A stretch of 64,000 nt of DNA from positions 186,001 through 250,000 of the forward strand of contig NZ_JAJOMB010000006.1 in NCBI RefSeq assembly GCF_021129305.1, read 5' to 3'. The notes under the pieces are model-generated. The model worked only from the letters and a program-made list of their open reading frames with translations. It did not search any database and was not told the DNA's origin. The position numbers and the translations under genes were made by a program. The first letter of the stretch is position 1; the number at the start of each line of letters is the position of its first letter. This DNA is from Kineosporia babensis (lineage in GTDB: Bacteria; Actinomycetota; Actinomycetes; Actinomycetales; Kineosporiaceae). Positions 15,733 through 64,000 of the stretch are shown here, piece after piece.

Positions 15733-15851
15733 ACCCGGAGGGCGGAACCACATCCGGCCCGATCCGGGCATTTCGATATGCCAAAGAGCTCACAAACAGG
15801 TTAAAAAGGATCTCCTAGGGTGACAACGATGTGGCCTTGAGGAGACCGGCG

Positions 15852-18524: not shown

Positions 18525-18525
18525 T

Positions 18526-19962
18526 ATGGACGCCCTGGAATCGCTCGCCCACCTGGACCCCGCCTACCCTCGGCCGCTGGTCTCGGAGCTGCTGGCCGCC
18601 CCCGAGAACGAACGGCTGCTGGACTACGTGGCCAACGACCCGTTCGGCGCCCACGTCTTTCCCGGTGACATCCCCGACGTCTCACCCGAGGCGTTCCTCG
18701 ACGACCTGGACGCCCAACTCGCCGACACCCGTCCGATCCATCTCTGGTCCTACATCCCGACCTGCAGCTACCGGTGCCGGTTCTGCCAGTACCCGGTGGT
18801 CATCGTCAAGGGCCCGGATGACGTGACCAGCGAAAAGGTCGACCACTGGGTAGAACTGAACATCCGCGAGGCGCAGATGTGGCTGCAGCGGGTGCCCCAC
18901 CTACGAGAGGCGCCGGTGGGGGAGTTCAACGTCTTCGGCGGAACCCCCTCACTGATGGGCCTGGACTCGGTCTCCCGGCTGCTGACGTTCTACCGCGAGA
19001 ACTTCGGCTTCGGGCCCTCCACCACGATCCGTTTCGAGGGTGACCCGACCACCCTCACCCCGGACCTGCTGGCCCGGCTGCAGGACCTGGGCTGCGACAA
19101 GGTCTCCTGCGGCGTGCAGTCTTTCGACGACCAGGTGCTGAAACTCAGCGGGCGCGAGCACACCGAGGCCGAGTGCCACGCCTTCCTCGACGCCACCCGC
19201 AAGCTCGGCTACGACTGGGTGACCATCGACCTGATGTACGGCCTGCTCGACCAGAGCGTGGCCGGTGTGGAACGCGACCTGGAACAGTTACGCCGCCACC
19301 AGGTGCCCGGCGTGGTCTGCACCAAGCTGCACCTGCGCTCGTACACCGACACCCGCACCGGCGTAGCGGGCGACCGCCCGGCCGCCTGGCAGTTCCCCGC
19401 CTACCGCAACCGCCTGGCCGAGGCCGGTCACCACTGGCCCAGCCTGGGCGAGCAGTACCAGATGCGCGAGATTCTGGCCTCCGGGCTGCGGGCCGACGGC
19501 TACGGCGAGCACCCGACCATGTACTTCCACCGCGGCGACAAGCCCCCGGAGACCTGGAAATCCATCATGGTCGACCAGGACCGCCAGGACGCCGAGGTCG
19601 CGATCGGCCTGGGTGGCAGCTCCAGCTGCCGCCGATCGGAAGCGATGACCGAGGTCAACGCGGTGAAGTACCGGCAGATGGTCGAGGCCGGCCGGCTGCC
19701 CCTGGCCTCGGCAACCCGCTTCGGACCTACCGCCACCGAATCCCGGGCGATCAAGATGGCCCTGTCTACCCTCCAGCCCGTGCGCGACGACCTGCACCGC
19801 GAGAGGTTCAACGGACGTTCGTTGTTCGACGACCCCTGGTCACAGCGCTGGGACGACCTGCAGCGCCGCGACCTGGTGACGGTGGACCGGGCCGAGGGAA
19901 TCGTGCGGCTGACCGAACCGGGTGAGGTGCTGGTCGAGGGCATCATGAACACCGAATTCTGA
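18526..19962 (+). CDS. HemN/HemW-like radical SAM enzyme
   Basis: A 478-residue radical SAM protein. The [4Fe-4S] motif is C-x3-C-x2-C at C80, C84 and C87 in PTCSYRCRFCQYP. Other HemN/HemW hallmarks are GGTPSLM (about 145), CGVQSFDDQVLKLSGREHT (about 196-214) and DLMYGLLDQS. No other heme gene is near, and the N-terminus has about 65 residues before the cluster loop. HemN-like enzymes outside heme synthesis often act as class C methyltransferases or cyclopropanases in specialised metabolism. The 1-bp gap to the double glycosyltransferase suggests both modify the same product. The reaction is not predictable from sequence. Confidence 0.85.
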   Translation: MDALESLAHLDPAYPRPLVSELLAAPENERLLDYVANDPFGAHVFPGDIPDVSPEAFLDDLDAQLADTRPIHLWSYIPTCSYRCRFCQYPVVIVKGPDDVTSEKVDHWVELNIREAQMWLQRVPHLREAPVGEFNVFGGTPSLMGLDSVSRLLTFYRENFGFGPSTTIRFEGDPTTLTPDLLARLQDLGCDKVSCGVQSFDDQVLKLSGREHTEAECHAFLDATRKLGYDWVTIDLMYGLLDQSVAGVERDLEQLRRHQVPGVVCTKLHLRSYTDTRTGVAGDRPAAWQFPAYRNRLAEAGHHWPSLGEQYQMREILASGLRADGYGEHPTMYFHRGDKPPETWKSIMVDQDRQDAEVAIGLGGSSSCRRSEAMTEVNAVKYRQMVEAGRLPLASATRFGPTATESRAIKMALSTLQPVRDDLHRERFNGRSLFDDPWSQRWDDLQRRDLVTVDRAEGIVRLTEPGEVLVEGIMNTEF

Positions 19963-20177
19963 CCATCTCGACCCGGTTTAGTGGTGTTGACCGGTCGAAC
20001 CGGGGCATTGTTCGACTTTCCGAACGCACTATTGAGACTGGGAGTTTCTGTAATTGAGAAGTTCCCCTTCGGGCAATTCTTGGTATTGGCCAGGGGTTCT
20101 TCATTTGCGCGCCGGCGCGGTCTCCAGTACTCCTTGAAGGGCGTCAAAAGACGGCGCTACTTCTTGAGGGGGAACAC

Positions 20178-20729
20178 GTGAACATTCATCGATTCGCACG
20201 TCGTTCGGCCAAGATTGCAGCATTGGCAGTGACTTTCTCGGCGACCGTGGGTGGGGGATTCGCTCATGCTTCCACGTCTGCCGCTTCGAAGCTTGACCGT
20301 GAGGTTCAGGCCGTGATTTCCGAGTTCGGGGGAACGAAACTGTCGGCGAACCAGGTCGCCTGGGACGACGGCGCCGTGGTGATGACGCTGCCCAGGCCGG
20401 GGGAAGAGCGTGCCCTGGCCGATGGTGAAAAGCGGTCGGCGGCCGGTGAGGCGAATTGCTCCGACGGCTATTCCTGCCTGTACGAACACGCCAACTGGGA
20501 TGGCCGCAGACTGCAGTTCTTCACCTGTCGGTACGAGAACCTCTCGGACTACGGGTTCCAGGATCAGACCTCGTCCTGGCACAACAACCAGAACACGAAG
20601 GCGTCCGTGGTGGAGAACTTTCTGGCGCTGGGGATCTACGAACCGCTCTGGACCGCGCAACCGAAGACAGCCAGTTCCCAGGTCGCAGATGCCCAGAACG
20701 AAAAGGCAGACCGTCTGCTCGTCTGTTGA
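20178..20729 (+). CDS. Secreted peptidase-inhibitor I36/crystallin-like protein
   Basis: A 183-residue exported protein. The signal peptide has an RRSAK basic region, a hydrophobic core (IAALAVTFSATVGGGF) and a cleavage site near AHA-S. The C-terminal domain contains CSDGYSCLYEHANWDGRRLQFFTCRYENLSDYGFQDQTSSWHNNQ, the cysteine and glycine/aromatic pattern of the inhibitor I36 family (Streptomyces metalloproteinase-inhibitor type, beta/gamma-crystallin fold). The GTG start has GAGGGGG upstream. The preceding 215 bp (19963-20177) are lower in GC and hold no convincing gene. A role in inhibiting proteases or binding calcium is inferred from the family. Confidence 0.75.
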   Translation: MNIHRFARRSAKIAALAVTFSATVGGGFAHASTSAASKLDREVQAVISEFGGTKLSANQVAWDDGAVVMTLPRPGEERALADGEKRSAAGEANCSDGYSCLYEHANWDGRRLQFFTCRYENLSDYGFQDQTSSWHNNQNTKASVVENFLALGIYEPLWTAQPKTASSQVADAQNEKADRLLVC

Positions 20730-20903
20730 CCACTGGCTGACGACACTCCAGATCCCGTCCACCGTGGTGCGAATTCGTCCCGCACGCGGTGGGCGGGATC
20801 CTGCCTGGTGCGTGGACAGCCTGGAGATAGAAATTGGAGAACCGCTGGTCTCATTCATGCTGTCGGTCCGCGCTCAAATGTCGGCGATCGACCACATCAC
20901 GAA

Positions 20904-20918
20904 TGTCGGAGTACGACA
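20904..20918. promoter_or_regulatory. Possible HipB operator upstream of hipBA
   Basis: TGTCG-GAGTA-CGACA is a perfect 5-5-5 inverted repeat. It lies just before a weak promoter pair (TTTCCA at 20921-20926, TACACT at 20944-20949, 17-bp spacer). A further TGTCG occurs at 20930-20934. HipB-type antitoxins repress their own operon through short inverted repeats at the promoter, so this is a good candidate; it is not proven. Confidence 0.4.
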
Positions 20919-20991
20919 ACTTTCCAGAGTGTCGGCGAACGCCTACACTGGCCACGCCTGAAGACAACGTCTGCGTGTGAAGGATCCATCG

Positions 20992-21351
20992 ATGCGCGTC
21001 GCGACCGTACGAGACGTCGGTGTGCTTGCGAGGAGGTTCCGGCGCGAGCAGGGCCTGACACAGGCAGACCTCGCTGAACGGGTAGGCGTTGGGCGCGAGT
21101 GGATCGTGCGCCTCGAGAGCGGACATCCCCGCCTGGAAGCCCAAAAGGTTCTGGACACCCTTTTCGTCCTTGGTCTTGTCCTCGATGTAGGTCAACCATC
21201 CCTCGCCGCTGAAGCCGGAGGGCAGTCGGGCGCCCCGAGAACACCGCGAACGGATCGCGAAGCAACGGCGTCGGCCGTTCATCCTCTCCGTAGTCCCAAG
21301 GAGGATGCCCTCGACCCGTTCGAGGCACTGTTCTCGCGACGGGCACGTTGA
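20992..21351 (+). CDS. hipB: HipB-like antitoxin / HTH transcriptional repressor
   Basis: A 119-residue protein with an XRE-family helix-turn-helix: LARRFRREQGLTQADLAERVGVGREWIVRLESGHPRLEAQKVLDTLFVLGL (about residues 9-60). The C-terminal half is polar and low-complexity and may hold the degradation tail or toxin contact. ATG 20992 is preferred over GTG 20977 because GAAGGA lies 7 nt upstream. The stop overlaps the hipA start by 1 nt (TGATG), the standard coupled arrangement. It should neutralise HipA and autoregulate. Confidence 0.85.
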   Translation: MRVATVRDVGVLARRFRREQGLTQADLAERVGVGREWIVRLESGHPRLEAQKVLDTLFVLGLVLDVGQPSLAAEAGGQSGAPRTPRTDREATASAVHPLRSPKEDALDPFEALFSRRAR

Positions 21352-22649
21352 TGGCAGGCGACCAGCAGCTACGGGTCTTCCTCGACGGGGCCCTGATCGG
21401 CGAGGTGCGGCAGACACCGCAAGGAGCCCTGTCCTTCGCGTATGACGAGGAGTACCGGGCCGAGCCAACTGCAACGCCACTTTCGTTGTCGATGCCCCTC
21501 GACGCCGAGAAGCACCCGAACAAGGTGGTCAGCGCTTATCTCGATGGCCTGCTCCCCGACTCCGAAGCAGCCCGCCGACGCTGGGGCCAGCAGTACGGAG
21601 CGAACCCGAGGAACCCATTTTCGCTCCTGCGACACGTCGGTCGCGACGCCGCGGGTGCGGTGCAGATTCTTCCGCCTGATGCAGAAGCATCCGACGCCGC
21701 CGATCAGACCGGCGATATTGAATGGCTCAGCGACGACGATTTCGCCGCGCTCGCACATGATCTCGCCGCGCACGGTGAAGACTGGGATCCAGGTCGATTC
21801 GGCGGCCGATGGAGTCTGGCCGGCGCGCAGCCGAAGATCGCGCTGTTCCAGGACCCAAAGACCGGTGCCTGGGGTATCCCCCGGGACTCGACGCCCACCA
21901 ACTGCATCATCAAGCCCGCCCTACGCGCCTTCCAGCGTCACCACGTCAACGAGGCGTTGTGTCAGCGAACTGCCCACCATGCAGGGCTCCTGACCGCCGA
22001 AGTGAGCTTGGTCGAGGTTGCCGATGTCCACGCCGTCATCTCGCACCGCTACGACCGTGACCAGGACAGCACAGGACGGTGGCACCGGGTTCACCAGGAA
22101 GACCTTTGCCAGGCCCTCTCGGTTCACCCCAGCAAGAAGTACCAGTCCGACGGCGGGCCCGGCGTAGGCGCCGTCGGCAGGCTGTTTCAGAAGCTTTCCG
22201 TCGACGACCGAACCGTCTCCGCAGAGCGCTTTTTCAAAGGGTTGGCTCTCAATGTCCTCATCGGTGGTACCGACGCTCACGCCAAGAACTACTCGCTCGT
22301 CCTGATCGGTAGCCGCGCCCAGATCGGCCCCCTGTACGACGTGGCCTCCGCCGCTTGCTACCCACAATATGTCGGCCTGGACTCCTCCATGAAGATCGGC
22401 GAGCACTGGCGGTTCCTCGACATCGGGATCGCCGACTGGAAGCGAGCAGCCAAGCAACTCGGCCTGCCGGGCGATCAAGCCATCAACTGGGTCGAGGAAC
22501 TACGCACCAACCTGCCTGGGGCGCTGGAGCGTGCTGTTGCTTCACTGCCCCCGAACGTTCAGGTCGAAGCCAACGCCATGGCCGAACGTATCGCCGAGCA
22601 CGTCGCTGGAACCTGGCGCCCCGACCAGACCGTGATTCGCCCCACCTGA
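21351..22649 (+). CDS. hipA: HipA-family serine/threonine kinase toxin
   Basis: A 432-residue HipA-like protein. The N-terminal HipA_N (couple_hipA) region is LRVFLDGALIGEVRQTPQGALSFAYDEEY (about residues 7-35). The kinase core has SLAGAQPKIAL (the phosphate-binding strand) and LIGGTDAHAKNYSLVL, with the catalytic Asp and metal-binding Asn in place. So the toxin looks intact. Known HipA kinases phosphorylate glutamyl-tRNA synthetase and induce dormancy; the target here may differ. It is translationally coupled to hipB. Confidence 0.9.
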   Translation: MAGDQQLRVFLDGALIGEVRQTPQGALSFAYDEEYRAEPTATPLSLSMPLDAEKHPNKVVSAYLDGLLPDSEAARRRWGQQYGANPRNPFSLLRHVGRDAAGAVQILPPDAEASDAADQTGDIEWLSDDDFAALAHDLAAHGEDWDPGRFGGRWSLAGAQPKIALFQDPKTGAWGIPRDSTPTNCIIKPALRAFQRHHVNEALCQRTAHHAGLLTAEVSLVEVADVHAVISHRYDRDQDSTGRWHRVHQEDLCQALSVHPSKKYQSDGGPGVGAVGRLFQKLSVDDRTVSAERFFKGLALNVLIGGTDAHAKNYSLVLIGSRAQIGPLYDVASAACYPQYVGLDSSMKIGEHWRFLDIGIADWKRAAKQLGLPGDQAINWVEELRTNLPGALERAVASLPPNVQVEANAMAERIAEHVAGTWRPDQTVIRPT

Positions 22650-22795
22650 TCCGGCTTGACGGGCAGTCGCCCAGGCCATCGATCAGATCCACGTTCTGGA
22701 ACTCGATTTCCGCAGTCGGGTCTCGGTCCTGGCCGGCTGCACGGAACCGGGCCCGGGTCGGCTGCGTCCAAGGGCGGCGAACACGGGAGGATCTG

Positions 22796-23287
22796 ATGAA
22801 GAAGACCTGGATGGTCATGCCGGCGCTGCTGGCCGTGGTGCTGGCCGGTTGTGGTGCGGACAGTTCTGGTGATGCGGTGACGCCGCAGGATGCTGAGCCG
22901 GCGCTGGAGGAGCAGATCCTGGGCGTGTGGTACCCGTGGGACATTCCCTCGTACGAGCCCTCGAAGTTCGGGGTGCAGACGTTCGGGGAGGCCTCGGTGG
23001 AGTTCAAGGACGACGGGACCTGGTCGGGCAGCGACGGCTGCAACGGGCAGAGTGGTGAGTACGAGGTCGCTGCGGACGGGAAGTTCTCGGCGTCGGAGCC
23101 GGGGGTGCAGACCATGATCGGGTGCGCCAACGTGCCCAACGCTTCGGTGCTGCATTCCTCGTTCAAGGCCGAGATCGTGGACGGTGTGCTGGTTCTCAGC
23201 AGCCAGAGCGACCAGGTCAACGGGCGTTACGTGCGTGAGCCTCAGGCCGGGCCGTCGCCGACGGCTTCGGCGGTTGCGGAGAGCTGA
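22796..23287 (+). CDS. META-like secreted lipoprotein
   Basis: A 163-residue lipoprotein with a signal peptide ending in the lipobox LAGC (residues 17-20). The mature part has GVWYPWDIPSY, VEFKDDGTWSGSDGCNGQSGEY and MIGCANVP. The GSDGCN motif resembles META/HslJ domains, which bind no known ligand. ATG 22796 follows GGGAGGATCTG. The last 46 nt overlap the end of the convergent acetyltransferase gene. The function is unknown; an envelope or stress role is common for the family. Confidence 0.7.
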   Translation: MKKTWMVMPALLAVVLAGCGADSSGDAVTPQDAEPALEEQILGVWYPWDIPSYEPSKFGVQTFGEASVEFKDDGTWSGSDGCNGQSGEYEVAADGKFSASEPGVQTMIGCANVPNASVLHSSFKAEIVDGVLVLSSQSDQVNGRYVREPQAGPSPTASAVAES

Positions 23288-23910
23288 GCGTTCTCGGCCC
23301 GGTCGGCAGCCGGGCGGAGCATGACCTGGGACTGAGCGCCGGGCAGCAGGTTCACGGTGGCGACGGTGACGAAGCCGTGGCGGGCGTACAACCGGGCGCT
23401 GCCGGTGGTGGTGGCCTCCAGCGCCGCGGGGGCTCCGGCCTGGTCGATCTGGGCCAGGCGGTAGCGCAGCAGGGCCGAGCCGATGCCCTGCCCCTGTCGT
23501 TCCGGGTCGGCGGCGACGTCCTGCAGGTACCAGTGCGGCTCGCGCGGCCGATGCGCCCGGACCGCCCGCTCCTGCTGCAGGCCGCGGCCGAGGGAGCCGC
23601 CCAGCAGGTTGCCCAGCGCCCAGCCGATCCGGGCGGCCTGGCGGCGCCACCACGGAGTGGGGCCCTGCTCGATCCGGGGTGCGGACCAGCGCAGGGCGCC
23701 GACCACACGCCCGTTCTCGTCCACCGCGACGTCCAGCGGCCGCGGGCCCGGGCCGGCCAGGTCGGCGTGCATGATCCAGCGGATGGTGCGGGCGCGGTGC
23801 CGGGTCCGGGGCATCAGGGCGACCCAGACCGGGTCGTGCTCGAAGGCCCGGGCGAAGAGGTCGGCGGCGGCAGCGATGTCATCGGTGGTGGCGGGTCTGA
23901 CGTGGACCAT
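23242..23910 (-). CDS. GNAT-family N-acetyltransferase
   Basis: A 222-residue protein. MVHVRPATTDDIAAAADLFARAF at the start and VAADPERQGQGIGSALL (acetyl-CoA motif A, RxGxG, about residues 128-144) identify the GNAT fold. GSARLYARHGFVTV is motif B. The last 46 nt overlap the convergent lipoprotein gene, so the final 15 residues are the least certain. The promoter probably lies in 23911-23970, where minus-strand TTGCTC and TAGACT stand 18 bp apart around a tandem repeat. The acyl acceptor is unknown. Confidence 0.85.
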   Translation of the reverse strand: MVHVRPATTDDIAAAADLFARAFEHDPVWVALMPRTRHRARTIRWIMHADLAGPGPRPLDVAVDENGRVVGALRWSAPRIEQGPTPWWRRQAARIGWALGNLLGGSLGRGLQQERAVRAHRPREPHWYLQDVAADPERQGQGIGSALLRYRLAQIDQAGAPAALEATTTGSARLYARHGFVTVATVNLLPGAQSQVMLRPAADRAENAQLSATAEAVGDGPA

Positions 23911-54776: not shown

Positions 54777-57209
54777 ATGAGGGAAGGCGCCGGGCGCCTG
54801 AAGGTCTACCGGGAGAACGGCAGCCCGGACAGACCCGCGGACGAAGGGGGCGAAGGGCAGGCCGAGTTCCGGATCCTGGGACCGGTCGAGGTCTGGCTGG
54901 ACGGGGTGCAGCACTCGCTGGACGGTTCCAAACAGCGCACCGTCCTGGCGTCGCTGCTGCTGGCCCGGGGGCGGATCCTGACCGACGAGCGGCTCAGCTC
55001 GCTGCTGTGGGGGGAGGAGCCACCCACCACCGCGGCCGCGCAGCTCTACACGCACGTGTCGCGGCTGCGCAAACTGCTCGGTACCCGGGCGACGATCCGC
55101 CGGCACCGGCCGGGCTACCTGATCGAGGTCGGCCCGGCGCTGATCGACCACGTCGAGTTCGAGCGGCTCAGCGCCGCCGGGCAGAGCGCCCTGCAGGCCG
55201 GCTCGCACGAGGAGGCCTCGACCACGCTGGCCCGGGCCCTGCGGCTGTGGCGCGGCCCGGCCCTGGCCAACGTCACCGAGCACCTGTCCGAGCTGGGCCT
55301 GCCCGGCCTGGAGGAGGCCCGGATGGTGGCCCTGGAGAGCCGGCTCGAGGCCGACCTCGCCCTGGGCCGCGCCGACCGGCTGCTGGCCGAGCTGACCAGC
55401 ATGGTCACCCTCTACCCGTTGCGCGAGCGGCTGCGCGGCCTGCTGATGATCGCGCTGTACCGGTGCGACCGGCAGGCCGATGCGCTCGGCGCGTTCCACG
55501 ACGGGCGCACCCTGCTGGCCGAGGAACTCGGGGTCGACGTCGGCCCGGTGCTGACCGGCCTGTACCAGGAGATCCTCAGCGGTGAGCCGGAGGTCGGCCC
55601 GGTCACCGAACTGGAGCGCGTCCCGCTGCGGGTGAGCGGTGCCGAGCCGGTGGTCAGCGACCCTCGCCCGGCCACGCTGCCCTCCCCGGCCGCGGACTTC
55701 ACCGGCCGCGAGGCCCAGGCCCGGCAGACCGCCGACCTGCTCACCCCGGCCCAGGAGACCGGCCGCTCCGGGATCGCGATGATCACCGGCATGCCCGGCG
55801 TGGGCAAGAGCGCGCTGGCCGTGCACACCGCGCACCGCTGCCGGGACACCTTCCCCGACGGCCAGCTGTACGCCGACCTGCGCGAGCCGAACGGCGCCCC
55901 GGTCGACAGCGTCCAGGTCCTCGGCTCGTTCCTGCGCTCGCTCGGGATGCCCGAGGCCGAGGTGCCGGCCGAGCGGGCCCAGCGGATCCGCTGCTACCGC
56001 AGCCTGCTGGCCGACCGGCGGGTCCTGGTCGTGCTCGACAACGCGGCCAGCGACCGGCAGGTGCGCTGCCTGCTGCCCTCGGGCCCGGGCTGCAGCGTGC
56101 TGATCACCAGCCGGGCCCCGCTGACCACCCTGGAGGGCACCCAGCTGGTCGACCTGGACCCGCTGGACGAGCCCGAGTCGGTGGCCCTGCTGGGCGCGAT
56201 CATCGGTGCGGCCCCGGTGGCGGCCGAGGCCGAGGCGGCGGCCGAACTGGCCGGCCTGTGCGGGGGCCTGCCCCTGGCGGTCCGGGTGGCCGGGGCCCGG
56301 ATCTCCAGCGGGAGCCACCATTCCCCGGGCCGGCTGCTGAACCGGCTGCAGGACGAGTCCGCCCGCCTGGACCAGCTGCGGCTGGGCAGCATGGACGTGC
56401 GGGCCAGCCTGGAGAGCGCCTACTGGGACCTGGACCCCCGGGCCCGGGCCGCGCTGCGCCGGCTGGCCCTGCTGGACGTGCCCGACTTCGCCAGCTGGGT
56501 GGCCGCGGCGGTGCTGGAGGTCAGCGAGGAGGACGCCGAGGACGTGATGGACGTGCTGGTCGGGGCCCGGCTGCTGCACGTGGTCACCGACCAGCCGGAC
56601 CCTTCCGGCGGGATCCGCTACCGGCTGCACGACCTGGTCCGGCTGATGGCCCGCGAGCGCGCGATGGGCGAGGAACCGGCGATCGAGCGCAAGGCGGCGA
56701 TCGACCGCGCGATGGGCGCCTGGCTCTCGGTCGCCACCGAGGCCGACCGGCGGCTGACCGGCGCGCCTCGCCCGGGTGCCCCGGCCCCGCCGGGCCCGGC
56801 CAGTCGCTGGCGGCTGGGCGCGACCCACGTGCGGGTGCTGCTCACCGATCCGCTGAGCTGGTTCGACCAGGAGGAGGGGGCGCTGCTGGCGGTGCTGGAG
56901 CAGGCTGCCCGCACCGGCCGCGCCGCGCACGCCTGGGAGACCGCGCAGAGCCTGTCCGGGTACTTCGGCCACCGGCACCGGCACGAGGACTGGCGCTCCA
57001 GCCATCAGCGGGCCTGGACGGTGGCCCACTCCAGCGGCGACGTGCTCGGGCAGGCGGTGATCCTGCAGGGCCTGGCCGAGTTGTCGGCGGCGCTCGGCGA
57101 TGCCGGGGCCGAGCGCGGCTACGCAGGTCAGGCCGAGGTGCTGCACCGGGTGCTGGACGCCCGTCCGGAGGCGGGCGGGCGCAGGAGCACCGCAGTGGGG
57201 TGGACCTGA
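54777..57209 (+). CDS. SARP-family transcriptional regulator with NB-ARC-type ATPase domain
   Basis: An 810-residue regulator of the AfsR type. A winged-helix Trans_reg_C domain (FRILGPVEVWLDGVQHSLDGSKQRTVLASLLL, about residues 30-105) is followed by a BTAD domain (VEFERLSAAGQSALQAGSHEEASTTLARALRLWRG, about 125-275). An NB-ARC-like module follows, with Walker A GMPGVGKS (about 338-345) and RVLVVLDNA as Walker B (about 414-422). The C-terminal TPR portion is short. ATG 54777 follows GGGGAGGATCAC. It is the probable activator of the biosynthetic genes that start at 57873. Confidence 0.9.
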   Translation: MREGAGRLKVYRENGSPDRPADEGGEGQAEFRILGPVEVWLDGVQHSLDGSKQRTVLASLLLARGRILTDERLSSLLWGEEPPTTAAAQLYTHVSRLRKLLGTRATIRRHRPGYLIEVGPALIDHVEFERLSAAGQSALQAGSHEEASTTLARALRLWRGPALANVTEHLSELGLPGLEEARMVALESRLEADLALGRADRLLAELTSMVTLYPLRERLRGLLMIALYRCDRQADALGAFHDGRTLLAEELGVDVGPVLTGLYQEILSGEPEVGPVTELERVPLRVSGAEPVVSDPRPATLPSPAADFTGREAQARQTADLLTPAQETGRSGIAMITGMPGVGKSALAVHTAHRCRDTFPDGQLYADLREPNGAPVDSVQVLGSFLRSLGMPEAEVPAERAQRIRCYRSLLADRRVLVVLDNAASDRQVRCLLPSGPGCSVLITSRAPLTTLEGTQLVDLDPLDEPESVALLGAIIGAAPVAAEAEAAAELAGLCGGLPLAVRVAGARISSGSHHSPGRLLNRLQDESARLDQLRLGSMDVRASLESAYWDLDPRARAALRRLALLDVPDFASWVAAAVLEVSEEDAEDVMDVLVGARLLHVVTDQPDPSGGIRYRLHDLVRLMARERAMGEEPAIERKAAIDRAMGAWLSVATEADRRLTGAPRPGAPAPPGPASRWRLGATHVRVLLTDPLSWFDQEEGALLAVLEQAARTGRAAHAWETAQSLSGYFGHRHRHEDWRSSHQRAWTVAHSSGDVLGQAVILQGLAELSAALGDAGAERGYAGQAEVLHRVLDARPEAGGRRSTAVGWT

Positions 57210-57273
57210 GTACACCCCCGGTGCGGTAACTCGCACCATTGCTGGGAACAGCTGACGGGCCTACCGTTTCAGG

Positions 57274-57768
57274 GTGCCGAGTTACCGTGTGCAGCCGATC
57301 GAGCCCGACCTCGCCTGGAGGGTGCGGGCCACCCTGCGCTCACCCGGATACGACTATCCGGCCTACGTCGACCTGGCCACGGCCGAAGGCCCCTGCCGGG
57401 TCTGCCTGAATCCTTTCCGCTCCGGCGCCGACCGGGCCGTCTGGTTCGTCTACGACCCGGCCCGGGGCCGGGGCCCGGGGCCCGTCCCCGGCCCGGTACA
57501 GATTCACGAGGAAGGCTGCCAGGCCTACCGGAGTATCACCCCCAGCCCCGTCACCGGGCTGGACCCGGCCCTGTTGCGGTCAGGCTGCGGCCTGCTGCTG
57601 CAGGGCTTTTCCGCGTGCCCGCAGGGCGGCGGTACCGCGCTCGAGTCCGCGGACGGGGCCGATGCGCTGGGCGCCGCCCTGACCCGGCTGTTCGCCGAGC
57701 CCTCGATCGAGTACGTCCACGTGCGCCGGGCCGACGACGGGTGTTTCCTGTACGAGGTCACCTGCTAG
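57274..57768 (+). CDS. DUF1203 family protein
   Basis: A 164-residue protein with the DUF1203 pattern: YPAYVDLATAEGPCRVCLNPFRSGADRAVWFVYDP, GPVQIHEEGCQAYRSI and a C-terminal IEYVHVRRADDGCFLYEVTC. Cysteine pairs (CRVC) and a conserved His-Glu-x-x-C could bind a metal, but the function is unknown. It starts with GTG, 64 bp after the SARP stop. Whether it belongs to the biosynthetic cluster is unclear; DUF1203 genes often occur alone. Confidence 0.75.
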   Translation: MPSYRVQPIEPDLAWRVRATLRSPGYDYPAYVDLATAEGPCRVCLNPFRSGADRAVWFVYDPARGRGPGPVPGPVQIHEEGCQAYRSITPSPVTGLDPALLRSGCGLLLQGFSACPQGGGTALESADGADALGAALTRLFAEPSIEYVHVRRADDGCFLYEVTC

Positions 57769-57811
57769 GAGACTGCGCGCAGGTTCCGGTCAGAGCAGAG
57801 AAGACAAGGCC

Positions 57812-57850
57812 GGGATAGAGAAGATATAGATCCCGATAGAAGCGGGATAG
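57812..57850 (+). promoter_or_regulatory. Direct repeats, candidate SARP operator before fabG
   Basis: Heptamers GGGATAG (57812-57818), CCGATAG (57833-57839) and GGGATAG (57844-57850) lie in the same orientation, 21 and 11 bp apart. SARPs bind heptameric direct repeats at 11- or 22-bp spacing near the -35 region. A TATAGAT -10-like sequence is at 57825-57831, and AGAGAAGA is repeated at 57797 and 57817. The site is in the 104-bp gap before the first biosynthetic gene. Binding is inferred. Confidence 0.5.
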
Positions 57851-57872
57851 GGCCCGGGCAGAGGCTTTCGCC

Positions 57873-58619
57873 ATGCCTGATGGACATCGACCGGTCGCCC
57901 TGGTCACCGGAGGATCGCGGGGGATCGGCGCCGCGATCGTGGACCGCCTGGCCGTCGACGGATACGACGTGGCCTTCTGCTACTCGGCCAGCACGCAGGC
58001 CGCGGCCCTGGTGGCCGAGAAGGCCCGCGCGCACGGCGGCCGGGTGCTCGAACGCCGGCTCGACGTCTCCGACGGGCCCGCGGCCCAGGAGTTCGTCGCG
58101 CTCACCGAACGCGAGCTCGGCCCGGTCAGCACCGTGGTCACCTGCGCGGGCATCATCCGGGACCGGCCGCTGGCGCTGATGGACGACGAGAGCTGGGACG
58201 ACGTCCTGCGGATCAACCTGGACGGCACCTATCACGTCTGCCGGGCCGTGGTCCGCAAGCTGATCCGCCGTCGCCAGGGCAGCGTCATCACCGTCTCCTC
58301 GGTCTCCGGAGTCAGCGGAAACGCCGGGCAGACCAACTATTCCGCCTCCAAGGCCGGGATCATCGGCTTCACCCGGGCGATGGCCAAGGAGGTCGGCCGC
58401 TACGGGGTGCGGGCCAACGTGGTCGCCCCCGGCCTGATCGAGACCGACATGATCGCCGGGATGCCGCAGACGGCCGCCGACGGCCTGCTCGGGCAGATCC
58501 CGCTGGCCCGCTTCGGCCAGGCGCACGAGGTGGCCGGCACGGTCTCCTTCCTGGCCTCCGGGCAGGCCTCCTACATCACCGGCCAGGTGATCCAGGTCGA
58601 CGGCGGCATCGCCGTCTGA
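57873..58619 (+). CDS. 3-oxoacyl-ACP reductase (FabG-like SDR)
   Basis: A 248-residue short-chain dehydrogenase. TGGSRGIGAAIV (residues about 10-21) binds NAD(P)H. The catalytic set includes Ser in VSSVSGVSGN, Tyr and Lys in YSASKAG (Tyr about residue 156). The end GQVIQVDGGIAV is typical of FabG. Here it most likely reduces a beta-ketoacyl group on the free carrier protein encoded two genes later. It opens the biosynthetic operon and is followed after 28 bp by the KAS III gene. Confidence 0.9.
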   Translation: MPDGHRPVALVTGGSRGIGAAIVDRLAVDGYDVAFCYSASTQAAALVAEKARAHGGRVLERRLDVSDGPAAQEFVALTERELGPVSTVVTCAGIIRDRPLALMDDESWDDVLRINLDGTYHVCRAVVRKLIRRRQGSVITVSSVSGVSGNAGQTNYSASKAGIIGFTRAMAKEVGRYGVRANVVAPGLIETDMIAGMPQTAADGLLGQIPLARFGQAHEVAGTVSFLASGQASYITGQVIQVDGGIAV

Positions 58620-58647
58620 AACTCCGTTCCCAGCAGGAGGAACAGTC

Positions 58648-59604
58648 ATGCCGCAGCACTACGAGTCCCGGATCAGCGGGGTCGCCGCCTACCGGCCGGC
58701 CCGGCTGATCAGCAACACCGAGATCTCGGCCCGGACCACGGTCGCCCCGGAATGGATCGTGGAACGCACCGGCATCCAGACCCGGGCCCACGCGGGGCCC
58801 GAGGAGGACCTGGTCACCATGGCCGTCGAGGCCGGGCAGAAGGCGATCGCGATGGCCAGCGCCGAACCCGGCGACATCGGCCTGGTGGTCCTGGCCACCG
58901 CCACCCGGCGCCAGCGGATCCCCGGCATCGCCCCGCAGGTCGCCAGCCGGCTCGGGCTGAGCACGGCCGGGGCCTTCGACCTGAACGCGGTCTGCGCCGG
59001 CTTCACCTACGCCGTCGCGATGGGATCCAACGCCGTCCGTTCCGGCGAGACCCAGCACGCCCTGGTGATCGGGGCGGAACGGGTCAGCGACTGGATCACC
59101 CCGGACGACCCGGACACTTTCGTCATCTTCGGCGACGGGGCCGGTGCGGTCGTGGTCTCACGCTCCGCGGAATGGGGTGTGGGGCCCTCGATCTGGGGCA
59201 ACGACGGCGACCGGCACGCGGTCCTGGCGATGACCGAGGACGAGTCGGGCAGCGAGTACGTCGGGATGAACGGCCCGCTGGTGTACAAGTGGTCCACCTC
59301 CGCGATGCCCGACGCCGCCCAGCGCGCCTGCGTCGCCGCCGGCGTCACCCTCGCCGACATCCAGTGGTTCGTGCCGCACCAGGCCAACTGCCGGATCATC
59401 GACACCCTGGCCCACCGGCTCGGCCTGCGCGAGGACCAGGTGGTCCGCGACGTGGTCGAGGCCGGCAACACCTCGGCGGCCTCGGTGCCGCTGGCCCTGT
59501 CCCGGCTGTACGAGAGCGGGCGCACCTCGCCCGGAGACCTGGTGCTGCTGCTGGGTTTCGGGGCCGGGCTGACCTACGCCGGGCAGGTCGTCCGGATGCC
59601 CTGA
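58648..59604 (+). CDS. Beta-ketoacyl-ACP synthase III-like protein (FabH family)
   Basis: A 318-residue thiolase-fold enzyme with an intact triad: Cys116 in NAVCAG, His244 in VPHQAN and Asn274 in EAGNTSAAS. EWIVERTGIQTR is the FabH start region and FGDGAGAVVV the glycine-rich core. KAS III enzymes condense an acyl-CoA with malonyl-ACP; some in natural-product clusters acylate other groups. With FabG and ACP next to it, priming a short or unusual acyl chain is the best reading. It has AGGAGGA before ATG 58648. Confidence 0.9.
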   Translation: MPQHYESRISGVAAYRPARLISNTEISARTTVAPEWIVERTGIQTRAHAGPEEDLVTMAVEAGQKAIAMASAEPGDIGLVVLATATRRQRIPGIAPQVASRLGLSTAGAFDLNAVCAGFTYAVAMGSNAVRSGETQHALVIGAERVSDWITPDDPDTFVIFGDGAGAVVVSRSAEWGVGPSIWGNDGDRHAVLAMTEDESGSEYVGMNGPLVYKWSTSAMPDAAQRACVAAGVTLADIQWFVPHQANCRIIDTLAHRLGLREDQVVRDVVEAGNTSAASVPLALSRLYESGRTSPGDLVLLLGFGAGLTYAGQVVRMP

Positions 59605-59657
59605 GCAGATCCGTCCCTAGGCAGTTCCTTTCACCATCAACCATCAAGGAGACCACC

Positions 59658-59903
59658 ATGAACAACGACCAGATCCTCGGCGAGATCGCCCGGCAGATCC
59701 GGATCCTGATGCCCGGCCTGCAGGGCCAGATCCGGATGGAGACCGTCTTCGAGGAACTCGGGATGGACTCGCTGACCCGGGTCGACCTGCTCTCGGCGGC
59801 CGAGATGTCCTTCGGCATCGAGGTTCCCGACGACGAGGTGGGCTCGCTGGTGCGGGTCCAGGACCTCGTCGACTTCGTGATGTACAGCCAGGCCGCCGCC
59901 TGA
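59658..59903 (+). CDS. Free acyl carrier protein
   Basis: An 81-residue protein with the phosphopantetheine site in LGMDSLTRVDLL (Ser38) and acidic helices. Its length and composition fit an ACP rather than a peptidyl carrier. It lies between KAS III and the stand-alone condensation domain, so it probably carries the acyl chain that is built and then joined to the first amino acid. AAGGAG lies before ATG 59658. Confidence 0.92.
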   Translation: MNNDQILGEIARQIRILMPGLQGQIRMETVFEELGMDSLTRVDLLSAAEMSFGIEVPDDEVGSLVRVQDLVDFVMYSQAAA

Positions 59904-59935
59904 ACGACACCAACCTCGACGGACGGAGCCAACCG

Positions 59936-61279
59936 GTGGAACTCGTGGAACACCGCCTGACCGTGGGCCAGCAGAAGCTGTGGCTGCTGCACTCGATGGT
60001 CCCGCACAGCTCGGCCTACAACACAGGTGGGGCGTGCCGGTTCAGCCCCGGCCCGGACCTGCCGGTCCTGGAGAAAGCGGTGCGGGCCGTGGCCCGGCGC
60101 CACGACATGCTGCGCTCGCGGTTCGTGGAACGGGACGGGCAGGTGGTGCGGACCGTCGTACCGGCCGGGCCGGAGCACTCGCCGCTGCGGGTGGTCGACC
60201 TGGGCGACGCGGACGAGTCGGAACTGCTGCGGGCCGCCACCGCCGCGTCCCGGCAGCCGTACGACCTGAGCAACGACGGCCCGTTCCGGGCCGTGCTGCT
60301 GGGCCGTCCCGACGATGCGGTGCTGCTGCTCGGCACCCACCACATCGCCTCCGACGCCACCTCGCAGTGGCTGATCTGGCGCGACCTGATGGACGCCTAC
60401 GAGGCCTACGCCACCGGCCGGGGCCCGGCCTGGATGCCGGCGCACACCGGCTACCACGACCACGTGGCCCGGGAGGAGGACCTGCTGGCCTCGGCCCGGG
60501 GCACCCGGATGCGGGAGTACTGGCGCCAGGTCACCGACGGCGCCGCCGAGGTGCGCCTGCCGCTGGACCAGCCCCGCCCGAACACACCGTCCTTCCGCGG
60601 GCAGACCGCCACCCGGCAGATGCCCGAGTCGCTCACCCGCACCGTCCGCCAAACCGCGGCCCAGGCCGGGGTCTCGTCGTTCGCGCTGCTGATGGGCGCC
60701 TTCCAGATGCTGCTGCACCGCTACACCGGCCAGCGCGACTTCAGCCTGGTCTGCCCGGCCTCCACCCGCCGGCACGGCAGCGCCGAGGTGGTCGGCTACT
60801 TCGTCAACCCGATCACGCTGCGGGCCCGGATCGGCGAGAGCGCCACGGTGGCCGAGGTCGTCCAGGAGGCAGCCGTCCAGCTGCGCAACGGGATGGCCCG
60901 GGCGGCCTGCCCTTACGAGCACGGGGCGTTCCGGGTGGCGATGACCATGGTCCCGGCCGACCGGCTGGGTGGGCGGATGCAGCAGCTGTACGACCACGGG
61001 GTCGATCTGGCCGGCCGGCGCCTGACCTACTTCGACGTGCCGCACATGGAGGGCCAGTGCGACCTGTCGGCCGAGATCACCGAGGGGGCGGACCGGTTCA
61101 CGGTGGCCTTCCGTTACGACACCGACCTTTTCGAGCCGGGGACGATCGAGCGGATGCTCGAGCAGTACCTGACTCTGACCGAGCACGCCGCCCGCGGCCC
61201 GCAGGGCCAGGCCGACCGGGTGCCGATGGTCGAGGCCGACGAACGGATGCGTCTGCTGGCTCTCGGGGGTGCGCGATGA
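59936..61279 (+). CDS. Stand-alone NRPS condensation-domain protein
   Basis: A 447-residue condensation domain. The active-site motif is HHIASDA (residues 135-141, H-H-x3-D-A; Ala in place of the common Gly is seen in some C domains). Other C-domain landmarks are LTVGQQKLWLL at the start, RHDMLRSRF, and VGYFVNPITLRARI. It is alone, without adenylation or carrier domains. It likely joins the ACP-bound acyl group to the first amino acid (N-acylation), acting in trans with the NRPS downstream. The GTG start lies 32 bp after the ACP stop; its end overlaps the SbnA-like gene by ATGA. Confidence 0.88.
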   Translation: MELVEHRLTVGQQKLWLLHSMVPHSSAYNTGGACRFSPGPDLPVLEKAVRAVARRHDMLRSRFVERDGQVVRTVVPAGPEHSPLRVVDLGDADESELLRAATAASRQPYDLSNDGPFRAVLLGRPDDAVLLLGTHHIASDATSQWLIWRDLMDAYEAYATGRGPAWMPAHTGYHDHVAREEDLLASARGTRMREYWRQVTDGAAEVRLPLDQPRPNTPSFRGQTATRQMPESLTRTVRQTAAQAGVSSFALLMGAFQMLLHRYTGQRDFSLVCPASTRRHGSAEVVGYFVNPITLRARIGESATVAEVVQEAAVQLRNGMARAACPYEHGAFRVAMTMVPADRLGGRMQQLYDHGVDLAGRRLTYFDVPHMEGQCDLSAEITEGADRFTVAFRYDTDLFEPGTIERMLEQYLTLTEHAARGPQGQADRVPMVEADERMRLLALGGAR

Positions 61280-62280
61280 GGGCACCGGTGGAAGGGGTGC
61301 TGGGCGCGGTGGGCGACACCCCGCTGGTCCGGCTGACCCGGCTGTCCGACGAGCTCGGGATCAGCGCCTACGCCAAGCTGGAGCGGTTCAACCCCGGCGG
61401 CAGCGTGAAGGACCGCACCGCGATGAGCATGCTGCGCGCGGCGATGCGGGACGGAGTGCTGGTGCCCGGCCGCTCCACAGTGGTCGAGTCCAGCTCCGGC
61501 AACCTGGCGATCGGCCTGGCCCAGTTCTGCCTCTACCACGGGCTGGACTTCGTCTGCGTGGTCGACGCCAAGACCACCGCCGCCAACGTGCGGCTGCTGC
61601 ACGCCCTCGGCGCCCAGGTCGAGGTGATCACCGAGCCGGACCCGGAGACCGGGGAACTGCTGCCGGCCCGGCTGCGCCGGGTGCGGGAACTGGCCGCCAC
61701 CCTGCCCGGGGCGTTCTGGCCGAACCAGTACGCGAATCCGCTGAACGCCCGGGCCCACCACGAGACCATGCACGAGATCGCCCAGGCCCTGGACGGTCAC
61801 GTCGACTACGTGCTCTTCCCAGCCGGCAGCTGCGGCACCCTGGTCGGCAGCGCCCGCTATCTGCGGGTGAACGGCCTGCCCACCAAGGTGGTCGCGGTCG
61901 ACGCGGTCGGCAGCGTGCTGTTCGGCCGGGCCGAGGGCCGGCGACTGATCCCCGGCCACGGCGCCTCGGTACGCCCACCGCTGCTGGACACCACCCTGGC
62001 CGACGACGTGGTCCGGGTCACCGACCTGGACTGTGTGGTGAGCTGCCGCCGCCTGGCCCGCTCCGAGGCGATCCTGGCCGGCGGCTCCTCCGGCGCCGCC
62101 GTCGCCGCCCTGAACATCCTGGCCCAGCGCATCCCGGCCGGCTCGCGCTGCGTGATGATCTTCCCGGACGGCGGGGACCGCTACCTGGACACCATCTACT
62201 CCGACGAGTGGGTCAGCCGGCACTTCGGTGACGTCTTCGACCACTGGCGCCCGGCCCAGCCGGTGGGGGCAGCATGCTGA
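61276..62280 (+). CDS. sbnA: SbnA-like O-phosphoserine-dependent synthase for 2,3-diaminopropionate
   Basis: A 334-residue PLP enzyme of the cysteine-synthase fold. FNPGGSVKDRTAM has the PLP Lys at position 45; ESSSGNLAIGLAQF and GGSSGAAVAAL bind the substrate and the phosphate. SbnA proteins combine O-phospho-L-serine with glutamate to form N-(1-amino-1-carboxy-2-ethyl)-glutamate. The directly following SbnB-like gene (7-nt overlap) makes the identification firm. The product feeds L-2,3-diaminopropionate to the NRPS. Confidence 0.9.
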   Translation: MRAPVEGVLGAVGDTPLVRLTRLSDELGISAYAKLERFNPGGSVKDRTAMSMLRAAMRDGVLVPGRSTVVESSSGNLAIGLAQFCLYHGLDFVCVVDAKTTAANVRLLHALGAQVEVITEPDPETGELLPARLRRVRELAATLPGAFWPNQYANPLNARAHHETMHEIAQALDGHVDYVLFPAGSCGTLVGSARYLRVNGLPTKVVAVDAVGSVLFGRAEGRRLIPGHGASVRPPLLDTTLADDVVRVTDLDCVVSCRRLARSEAILAGGSSGAAVAALNILAQRIPAGSRCVMIFPDGGDRYLDTIYSDEWVSRHFGDVFDHWRPAQPVGAAC

Positions 62281-63281
62281 TCATCGACCACGCCAGCGTC
62301 CGCAAGATCCTGCACAACCGCGAACACGAGCTGATCTCGCTGGTCGGGCGGACCTACGCCGAGCACGACCGGGGGCGCAGCGCCCTGCCACACTCGATCT
62401 TCCTGCGCTTTCCCGACCAGCCGGCCGACCGGATCATCGGCCTGCCCGCCTACCTGGACGGCCCGCCCCGGGCCGGGATCAAGTGGATCTCCTCGTTCCC
62501 CGGCAACATCGAGACCGGTCAGGAACGGGCCAGTGCCGCGATCATCCTGAACTCGATGAGCACCGGGCACCCGCAGGCCCTGGTCGAGGGCTCGCTGATC
62601 TCGGCCCAGCGCACCGCTGCGAGCGCCGCTCTGGCCGCCCGCGAGCTCAGCGTCCCGGGCGCCCGGGACGGCCTGGTCCTGATCGGTTGCGGCGTGATCA
62701 ATCTCGAGGTGCTCCGGTTCGTCCGGGCGGCCCTTCCGGAACTGTCCCGGGTGACGGTGTACGACACCGACCCGGCCCGCGCCCAGGCCTTCGCCGCCAA
62801 GATCAAGGGCCTCACCGTCGGGGTGGCCGGGCACCTGGAGCAGGCACTGCAGGCCGACCCGCTGATCAGCCTGGCCACCAACGCCGCCACCCCGCACCTG
62901 GACCTGACCGGCGCCGACCCGCAGACCACCGTGCTGCACGTCTCGCTGCGGGACCTGAGCGTGGAGACCGTCCTGGCCGCCGACAACGTCGTCGACGACA
63001 CCGACCACGTCTGCCGCGAACGGACCTCGCTGCACCTGGCCGAGCAGCAGACCGGTTCCCGCGACTTCGTCACCGCGACGATCGGCGGGCTGATCCGGGG
63101 CGAGGGCCCGTCCGTGCGCACCGACGCGGGCCGCCCCCGGCCGGTGATCTTCTCCCCGTTCGGCCTGGGCGTGCTCGACCTGGCCCTGGCCGACCTGGTC
63201 GTCACCCGGGCCCGGCAGCAGGGGCTGGGCGTGGCGGTCGATGACTTCCTGCCCGTCGCAACCCCACAGACCGTGCACTGA
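62274..63281 (+). CDS. sbnB: SbnB-like dehydrogenase for 2,3-diaminopropionate
   Basis: A 335-residue protein of the ornithine cyclodeaminase/mu-crystallin fold. KWISSFPGNIETGQERASAAIILNS is the substrate region and LVLIGCGVINLEVLRFV the NAD-binding strand; the glycine pattern is GCGVIN rather than GxGxxG. SbnB oxidises and splits the SbnA product to L-2,3-diaminopropionate and 2-oxoglutarate. It overlaps sbnA by ATGCTGA and precedes the NRPS gene by 11 bp. Confidence 0.9.
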   Translation: MLIIDHASVRKILHNREHELISLVGRTYAEHDRGRSALPHSIFLRFPDQPADRIIGLPAYLDGPPRAGIKWISSFPGNIETGQERASAAIILNSMSTGHPQALVEGSLISAQRTAASAALAARELSVPGARDGLVLIGCGVINLEVLRFVRAALPELSRVTVYDTDPARAQAFAAKIKGLTVGVAGHLEQALQADPLISLATNAATPHLDLTGADPQTTVLHVSLRDLSVETVLAADNVVDDTDHVCRERTSLHLAEQQTGSRDFVTATIGGLIRGEGPSVRTDAGRPRPVIFSPFGLGVLDLALADLVVTRARQQGLGVAVDDFLPVATPQTVH

Positions 63282-63292
63282 AAGGACTTTCG

Positions 63293-64000
63293 ATGAACTC
63301 CTTGGTCACCAGCTCCGCCGGTCCGGCCGTGAAGCGCGGGGACGGCGACCAACTACGGGTGCTGCTGCCCGGCCTGGTCGCCGAACGGATCGACAGCGAC
63401 CCGGACGCCCCGGCCGTCACCTTCGGCGGCCGCAGCACCGACTACGCCACCCTCGGGGCCCGGGCCGCGGCCGTGGCGCAGCGCCTGCGCGCTCGCGGCG
63501 TGCGCCGGGGCGACCCGGTCGGCGTGTGCCTGAACCGACACCCCGACCTGGTCGCGGCCCTGCTCGGGGTCTGGTGGGCGGGGGCGGCCTACGTGCCGCT
63601 CGACCCGAACCACCCGGACGATCGGCTGGCCTGGATGGCCGCCGACGCCGGCGTCCGGGTCACCCTCACCCACAGCGACCTGGCCGGCCGGCTGGAGCGC
63701 GAGGTCGAGATCCTGGACGACCTGACCGCCACCGCCACCGACGAGCCGGTCAGCGTGCTGCCGGTGACCGCCGAGGACGCGGCCTACATCATGTACACGT
63801 CCGGTTCGACCGGGCGGCCCAAGGGCATCGTGATCAGCCACGGCGGCATCGCCAACCGGGTGCTGTGGACGGTGCGCACCCACGGCCTGGGCCCGGGCGA
63901 CCGGGTGCTGCAGAAGACCTCCACCGGTTTCGACGCCGCGGTCTGGGAGTTCTTCGCCCCCCTGGTCAGCGGCGCCACCGTCGCCCTGGCCCCGCTCGGC
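63293..64000 (+). CDS. Nonribosomal peptide synthetase, N-terminal adenylation domain, partial at window end
   Basis: The first 236 residues are visible. The protein starts directly with an adenylation domain: LVAERIDSDPDAPAVTFGGRSTDYATL is core A1/A2-like, YIMYTSGSTGRPKG (Tyr168) is core A3, and FDAAVWEFFAPLVSGATVAL is core A4. The specificity pocket starts with Asp in this last stretch, but most of it is beyond the window. No condensation domain precedes it, which fits the separate condensation protein encoded upstream. The neighbouring SbnA/SbnB genes suggest diaminopropionate as a substrate of this NRPS. Confidence 0.9.
   Translation, partial: MNSLVTSSAGPAVKRGDGDQLRVLLPGLVAERIDSDPDAPAVTFGGRSTDYATLGARAAAVAQRLRARGVRRGDPVGVCLNRHPDLVAALLGVWWAGAAYVPLDPNHPDDRLAWMAADAGVRVTLTHSDLAGRLEREVEILDDLTATATDEPVSVLPVTAEDAAYIMYTSGSTGRPKGIVISHGGIANRVLWTVRTHGLGPGDRVLQKTSTGFDAAVWEFFAPLVSGATVALAPLG

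Follow-up and report, generated by a model that had tools for sequence, protein, structure and literature searches.

A 64,000-nucleotide window of the Kineosporia babensis genome ends inside a gene cluster, linked to a SARP-family regulator, that probably directs the synthesis of an N-acylated hexapeptide with beta-ureidoalanine (Uda) as its first residue. The window spans contig positions C56:186001-250000, and the genome comprises 9.4 Mb in 89 contigs; coordinates prefixed C56 are contig positions throughout. Gene content and order, motifs, adenylation (A) domain codes and conservation were read from sequence, and all of the chemistry below is deduced from them. The cluster ends at C56:280365, 30.4 kb downstream of the window end, and holds six nonribosomal peptide synthetase (NRPS) modules in three proteins of 1652, 3651 and 908 amino acids. 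An earlier note on the window, which stopped at position 64000, had named a truncated or broken downstream NRPS as grounds for doubt. We find that the contig continues and that the NRPS genes read through, neither truncated nor broken. The cluster is thus real and apparently intact, and the genes following C56:280365 seem unrelated to it.

We propose that KAS III, FabG and a double-hotdog dehydratase at the far end of the cluster assemble, on a free acyl carrier protein (ACP), a short chain of 3-hydroxy or 2-enoyl type. SbnA and SbnB would make L-2,3-diaminopropionate (Dap), and a carbamoyltransferase of the Dap transcarbamylase (DPTCase) type would turn it into Uda. Module 1 would load Uda, the stand-alone condensation (C) domain would acylate it, and modules 2-6 would then extend it, in order, by Asn-like, Thr, Asn-like, Asn-like and Gly-like units. 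Candidates for hydroxylation are the oxygenases TauD1 and TauD2, both TauD/SyrP-like; TauD1 most likely acts on the Asn-like residues. A serine domain of beta-lactamase/penicillin-binding protein (PBP) fold would release the peptide by hydrolysis or side-chain closure. The predicted product is short 3-hydroxy- or 2-enoyl-Uda-(OH)Asn-Thr-(OH)Asn-(OH)Asn-Gly-like.

The first residue and its code

The genes for Dap synthesis exceed curated cut-offs, which bears out the earlier note on this point. SbnA scores 409.2 bits against TIGR03945 (NCBIfam cut-off 349.95) and SbnB 384.7 bits against TIGR03944 (cut-off 326.9). Dap transcarbamylases of the zwittermicin and viomycin clusters convert Dap into Uda, and their signatures are a (T/S)RWQTTG loop and HDLP (PMC4581275). 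The carbamoyltransferase encoded after NRPS 1 (C56:254251-255147) carries both, as TTRWQTTG and HDLP. Among 57 loci with relatives of this protein, the exact loop is found in 39 and HDLP in all 57; the Kineosporia rhizophila relative is 85% identical. Because the gene after NRPS 1 has these diagnostic motifs, Uda is likelier than Dap as the incorporated residue, and Dap is most likely converted into Uda, a glutamine look-alike. The product had earlier been called diaminopropionate-containing, with a Dap-predicting A-domain code as expected support. In that form the description is not supported: the DPTCase-motif gene is present, and no Dap code was recognized in the six A domains, judged without a table of Dap codes.

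The codes fit a Gln-shaped first residue. Ten-residue codes were taken from an alignment of the A domains at what we take to be the PheA positions. For modules 1-6 they read DAWQFATIDK, DLPKVAEVGK, DFWNIGMVHK, DLPKVAEVGK, DLPKVAEVGK and DIAQITLVWK. Uda is shaped like Gln, and we regard the module 1 code as Gln-like, close to the Gln code DAWQFGLIDK. The module 3 code is presumably that of Thr. The shared code of modules 2, 4 and 5 is nearest the Asn-type code DLTKIGEVGK, suggesting an Asn-like residue, and the module 6 code appears loosely Gly-like (Gly code DILQLGMIWK; both from PMC12283262).

The module 1 code travels with DPTCase. In a class sample of 246 genomes, source genome included, module-1-type cores (E <= 2.1e-53, a cut placed after seeing the data at the gap before the next match, 8.7e-43) number seven domains in six genomes, and all seven read DA(W/L)Q(F/S)AT(I/V)DK. 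A DPTCase relative, called by similarity alone at E 1e-75 or better, occurs in eight of the 246 genomes and in all six with a module-1-type domain (Fisher 1e-10, although the genomes are related and such association tests overstate independence). The 13 weaker matches (8.7e-43 to 7.5e-41), all of which were read, comprise 12 DVWH-type codes and one DAWHFSVVDK, taken to be Ser-type. All six compared clusters with the module-1-type code contain SbnA, SbnB and DPTCase, and SbnA and SbnB also accompany the code in locus L036. DPTCase relatives lie on large Streptomyces plasmids (28 records); of four records checked later, three (L112, L113 and L115) carry the code. A variant, DASQFAHIDK, stands beside DPTCase in G134, a DPTCase genome with no module-1-type match at the cut-off, and DASQ(F/L)AHIDK also adjoins DPTCase in L033 and L066.

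Two of the plasmid loci have features of their own. L112 (NZ_CP109355.1 330068-370970) pairs a four-module NRPS bearing DALQFATVDK with a ketosynthase (KS) pair beside EboA/EboE genes. In L113 (NZ_CP108489.1 234764-275678) the code, DAWQCATVDK, stands at the NRPS end, not the start; both TauD types are present, and a separate serine hydrolase gene follows the NRPS.

Several observations weigh against Uda as the first residue, beginning with the cut-off, the similarity-only DPTCase calls and the relatedness of the genomes given above. The module-1-type domain and DPTCase of G061 lie on different contigs. G263, a DPTCase genome, gave no module-1-type match at the cut-off in the 246-genome search, and the code is absent within 20 kb of the DPTCase gene of Streptomyces clavuligerus (L114). 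In L055, a DPTCase of 56% identity lies close to DAWQFGLIDK, the plain Gln code. Neither SbnA nor SbnB was matched in the partial stretches near the code in L112, L113, G165, G173, G211 and G061, and in that of L115 SbnA was matched and SbnB was not.

An unlikely alternative is that module 1 loads plain Gln, with Dap or Uda entering at another point, such as the DLPK modules, or at a later stage. Besides the closeness of its code to that for Gln, the distribution of DLPK-type domains speaks for this: they occur in ten of the 246 genomes, five of which have a DPTCase relative (Fisher 2e-6), and the DLPK domain of G246 has an SbnB relative (42%) nearby and no TauD1 match in 20 kb. In this sample the module-1-type domain, however, never occurs without DPTCase (6/6), whereas DLPK does so in five of ten genomes, four of these five being of one genus. 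Furthermore, in two DPTCase-less genomes, G183 and G109, the DLPK domain belongs to an NRPS adjoining a TauD1 relative (72% and 70%), and the 40 kb examined there hold no SbnA, SbnB or DPTCase match.

This pairing of DLPK with TauD1 recurs among the 57 carbamoyltransferase loci. In the 41 of them with an A domain read (loci cut 10 kb each side and not independent), TauD1 at >=60% identity is found in 12 of 16 loci with a DLP-type code and in none of 25 without. Thus, TauD1 most likely hydroxylates Asn-like residues. On the other side stand L023, L035, L037 and L038, which have the DLP-type code and no TauD1 match, as do G165, L112 and one G155 cluster, with no match that strong in the stretch searched; G246, where an SbnB relative stands instead, also goes against the pairing. 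In G183 the NRPS gene and TauD1 relative form a small separate cluster with an FkbH-like gene (domains other than A and C named by eye). This one NRPS gene, at 14251-23398 in the joined coordinates of L086-L087, reads C-A(DLPKVAEVGK)-peptidyl carrier protein (PCP)-thioesterase (TE), fused to an MFS-like transporter.

We consider it improbable that the product keeps free Dap and that the carbamoyltransferase takes a different amine or a late-stage intermediate as its substrate. SbnA and SbnB are present, the motifs of DPTCase and DBTCase overlap, with only a slight difference, and specificity is read from motifs only (PMC4581275). Against free Dap, none of the six A-domain codes was recognized as Dap, and DPTCase accompanies SbnA and SbnB in every compared cluster with the module-1-type code. 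Least probable is a siderophore of hydroxy-Asp type. SbnA and SbnB take their names from staphyloferrin B, and SyrP-like hydroxylases serve siderophore NRPSs, but no uptake or iron gene was recognized among the cluster proteins searched with Pfam. These instead comprise transport and signalling proteins such as the MFS exporter, the ABC/FtsX pair and the two-component system.

Proposed acyl arm, chain modification and release

Module 1 lacks a C domain of its own, and we propose that the stand-alone C domain fills this place, transferring the chain from acyl-ACP to aminoacyl-PCP1. This supports the earlier suggestion of a dedicated acyl chain built on the free ACP and joined by a separate condensation protein. 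The domain carries HHIASDA. Its best solved match is 7kvw (160 bits), presumably of LCL type, against 69.5 bits for 4jn3, the starter domain of the calcium-dependent antibiotic (CDA), which counts against the proposal. Because it is closer to 7kvw than to the CDA starter, "starter C" denotes a role here, not a proven class. Together with its counterparts in K. rhizophila, Phytohabitans flavus, G155 (two clusters), Streptomyces lavendulae and L112, it makes up a single clade of seven clusters (100/100). One KAS III without a KS/chain-length-factor (CLF) pair suggests a single round of extension, which would give a short 3-hydroxyacyl chain, or a 2-enoyl one if the dehydratase acts on it. No dehydratase match was found in the stretch searched in P. 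flavus, a further point on the opposing side. S. lavendulae and L112 have a KS pair at the corresponding place, pointing to longer chains.

The peptide may also be dehydrated as it grows. We regard it as possible, if somewhat doubtful, that the C domains before modules 4, 5 and 6 (C4, C5 and C6) dehydrate their donors, an addition compatible with an acyl-Uda hexapeptide. Thr3 would become dehydrobutyrine and hydroxylated Asn dehydro-Asn, as in AMB biosynthesis, in which hydroxylation by two oxygenases is followed by dehydration by AmbE-C2 (PMC10880069). The best solved matches of C4 are McyA (168 bits) and AmbE (145), the next scoring 98. Those of C6 are again McyA (208) and AmbE (166), the next scoring 116. 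The control, C3, gives 58 and 53 bits to these two versus 294 for Txo1. In a tree, 47 such C domains, including C4, C5 and C6, join AmbE and McyA (100/99), which represent the dehydrating (DHC/CmodAA) group, a role assigned in PMC10880069. Yet the motif of C4, C5 and C6 is CHxxxEG rather than the HHxxxDG given for AmbE-C2 in that review, and members of this clade stand after Gly-like modules in S. lavendulae, where the donor cannot undergo dehydration. The placement of C5 comes from the tree only, and the tree program raised flags for the residue composition of the McyA, BacC and Txo1 rows and for the long branch of BacC.

The predicted release domain is fused to the NRPS. This C-terminal domain of NRPS 3 has a PBP/beta-lactamase fold and matches D-Ala-D-Ala carboxypeptidase (9e-17) and SurE (6ksu, 6.5e-7). 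The Ser-x-x-Lys mark of PBP-type TEs is present as SISK in our cluster and as SxSK in 16 of 16 aligned clusters, which were chosen for matching our PBP domain (L072 matched as well and was left out). All 16 encode the domain in frame with NRPS sequence; L034 yielded no A-domain reading, its contig beginning within the NRPS-PBP gene. The YSN tyrosine functions in D-Ala-D-Ala carboxypeptidase. At its position, by alignment to 1sde, stands Lys in 15 of the 16 and Pro in one. No residues follow the domain in our cluster and 0-62 follow it in the 16, too few for a lipocalin-like domain. SurE-family enzymes are marked by such a C-terminal domain and act as stand-alone proteins in trans (PMC11735501), and we do not class the domain as SurE. 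The 2024 review describes PBP-type TEs as stand-alone and so far performing head-to-tail closure only (PMC11735501), and in 2026 the SurE domain embedded in BifB of the biffamycin pathway was called a "unique observation" (PMC13285481). The fusion in cis thus has a precedent and looks common in this cluster family. Because the N terminus would be acylated, head-to-tail closure is ruled out, leaving hydrolysis or side-chain closure. A structure predicted for the fused domain from ten relatives' sequences was too poor for use (mean pLDDT 41.7).

Gene organization, relatives and known systems

Within the window, the genes named in the earlier note (SARP, FabG, KAS III, ACP, C domain, SbnA, SbnB and NRPS) are all present on the + strand, although it passed over DUF1203, which is encoded between SARP and FabG (Table 1). 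The tight spacing it described from 57873 onward is confirmed by intergenic distances of 28, 53, 32, -4, -7 and 11 bases, and every active-site residue it listed was found. Genes past 64000 were set by homology and Pfam.

Table 1. Features of the cluster region (positions without prefix are those of the window)
Feature	Position	Strand	Basis or remarks
SARP-family regulator	54777-57209	+	Trans_reg_C, BTAD, NB-ARC matches
DUF1203 protein	57274-57768	+	
FabG-type ketoacyl-ACP reductase	57873-58619	+	family matches; YSASK at 156
KAS III (FabH-type)	58648-59604	+	family matches; Cys116-His244-Asn274
Free ACP	59658-59903	+	Pfam; Ser38
Stand-alone C domain	59936-61279	+	HHIASDA motif
SbnA (Dap synthesis)	61276-62280	+	TIGR03945 above cut-off; Lys45
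SbnB (Dap synthesis)	62274-63281	+	TIGR03944 above cut-off
NRPS 1 start, module 1 A domain	63293-64000	+	DAWQFATIDK; gene continues to C56:254251
NRPS 1	C56:249293-254251		A-PCP-C-A-PCP, 1652 aa
Carbamoyltransferase, DPTCase-type	C56:254251-255147		TTRWQTTG and HDLP motifs
MFS exporter	C56:255123-256448		Pfam
TauD1 (TauD/SyrP-like oxygenase)	C56:256533-257462		
TauD2 (TauD/SyrP-like oxygenase)	C56:257477-258499		
Sensor kinase	C56:258600-259907		
Response regulator	C56:259895-260572		
DUF4097-like protein	C56:260569-261348		label by eye
ABC ATPase	C56:261416-262225		
FtsX permease	ends C56:264714		
MbtH	C56:264933-265133		
NRPS 2	C56:265175-276130		three C-A-PCP modules and a fourth C domain, 3651 aa
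NRPS 3	C56:276132-278858		A-PCP-beta-lactamase domain, 908 aa
Double-hotdog dehydratase	C56:278855-279652		GHYPG in first half, ESWAQ in second
Type II thioesterase	C56:279649-280365		

Nearly identical clusters occur in K. rhizophila and P. flavus, with cousins in Streptomyces and other actinobacteria. The order FabG to SbnB recurs in K. rhizophila and two Phytohabitans species, so the head block is no chance arrangement; for Phytohabitans maris and P. flavus the agreement in order extends from FabG as far as MbtH. P. flavus, K. rhizophila and G155 also share the succession of six modules, with identical or similar codes, and Thr-DLPK-DLPK-PBP endings occur in four Streptomyces loci (L020, L021, L025 and L030). 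SARP relatives adjoin the cousin clusters of K. rhizophila (74%) and P. flavus (51%, there on the other strand). Three of six genomes of the genus, our own included, have the stand-alone C domain; G003 is probably the same genome as K. rhizophila G006, since their coordinates adjoin.

The cluster shares parts with several known systems. In CDA and cinnamoyl lipopeptide pathways, dedicated enzymes resembling fatty acid synthases or type II polyketide synthases build the acyl group for N-acylation; here there are instead a stand-alone C domain, one KAS III and a proposed Uda start unit. Tuberactinomycin (viomycin) clusters combine capreomycidine genes with a Dap-Dap-Ser core, and SbnA/SbnB-type Dap synthesis serves the viomycin pathway too. 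Identity with a tuberactinomycin cluster was rejected, as codes and genes differ. The likeness to viomycin and zwittermicin A lies in the DPTCase motifs TRWQTTG and HDLP (PMC4581275); in contrast, our cluster would add an acyl chain through the stand-alone C domain and has six modules with Asn-like and Thr codes. BifB of biffamycin A likewise has a PBP-fold release domain in cis at the NRPS end (PMC13285481), whereas the domain described here would follow an acylated chain.

A cousin cluster lies at about 2.44-2.51 Mb of the Streptomyces lavendulae CCM 3239 chromosome (L079-L082). It shares SbnA, SbnB, ACP, FabG, the stand-alone C domain, the fused PBP domain, DPTCase, TauD1 and SARP, and starts with DAWQFATIDK-DLPKLAEVGK-Thr. 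It differs in that a KS and a CLF replace KAS III, in its nine modules and in a tryptophan-halogenase-like gene; an LLM-like gene is present as well (both named by eye). Krisynomycin was rejected as its product: the compound has two 7-Cl-Trp residues (PMC13171985), which find no support in the codes.

A possible wider family of acyl-Uda peptides

No paper on this cluster or its codes, and no exact match to the A-domain codes, was found in the open-licence literature. Within this scope the earlier suggestion that the product may be new stands. Uda lipopeptides as such are already known. Lipodiscamides A-C, from the sponge Discodermia, combine L-3-ureidoalanine with a 2-enoate chain and a dehydroamino acid (PMC10077299), features that are also predicted here. 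They differ in their sponge source and in containing citrulline and dehydronorvaline (PMC10077299). Acylated Uda peptides thus already exist as chemistry; the parts of the present cluster are known, and their combination is a novel variant.

We tentatively suggest that these clusters represent a large actinobacterial family of acyl-Uda peptides, of which we found no description, with a general A-domain code for Uda, many with PBP release in cis and possibly with hydroxylated, then dehydrated, Asn. As part of this tentative proposal the code would be DA(W/L)Q(F/S/C)AT(I/V)DK, with the variant DASQ(F/L)AHIDK. In such a family the cis PBP domains, which have Lys for the YSN tyrosine and no lipocalin, would probably close the chain on a side chain or hydrolyse it. 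The exporter and sensor genes are of the kind seen beside antibiotics. NRPS-fused PBP release domains, "unique" in PMC13285481, may not be rare, as suggested by 16 of 16 aligned, though selected, clusters. If the proposal is true, Uda would have a readable code for genome mining, and the pair of a module-1-type A domain and DPTCase would serve as a marker for finding acylated ureido-peptides.

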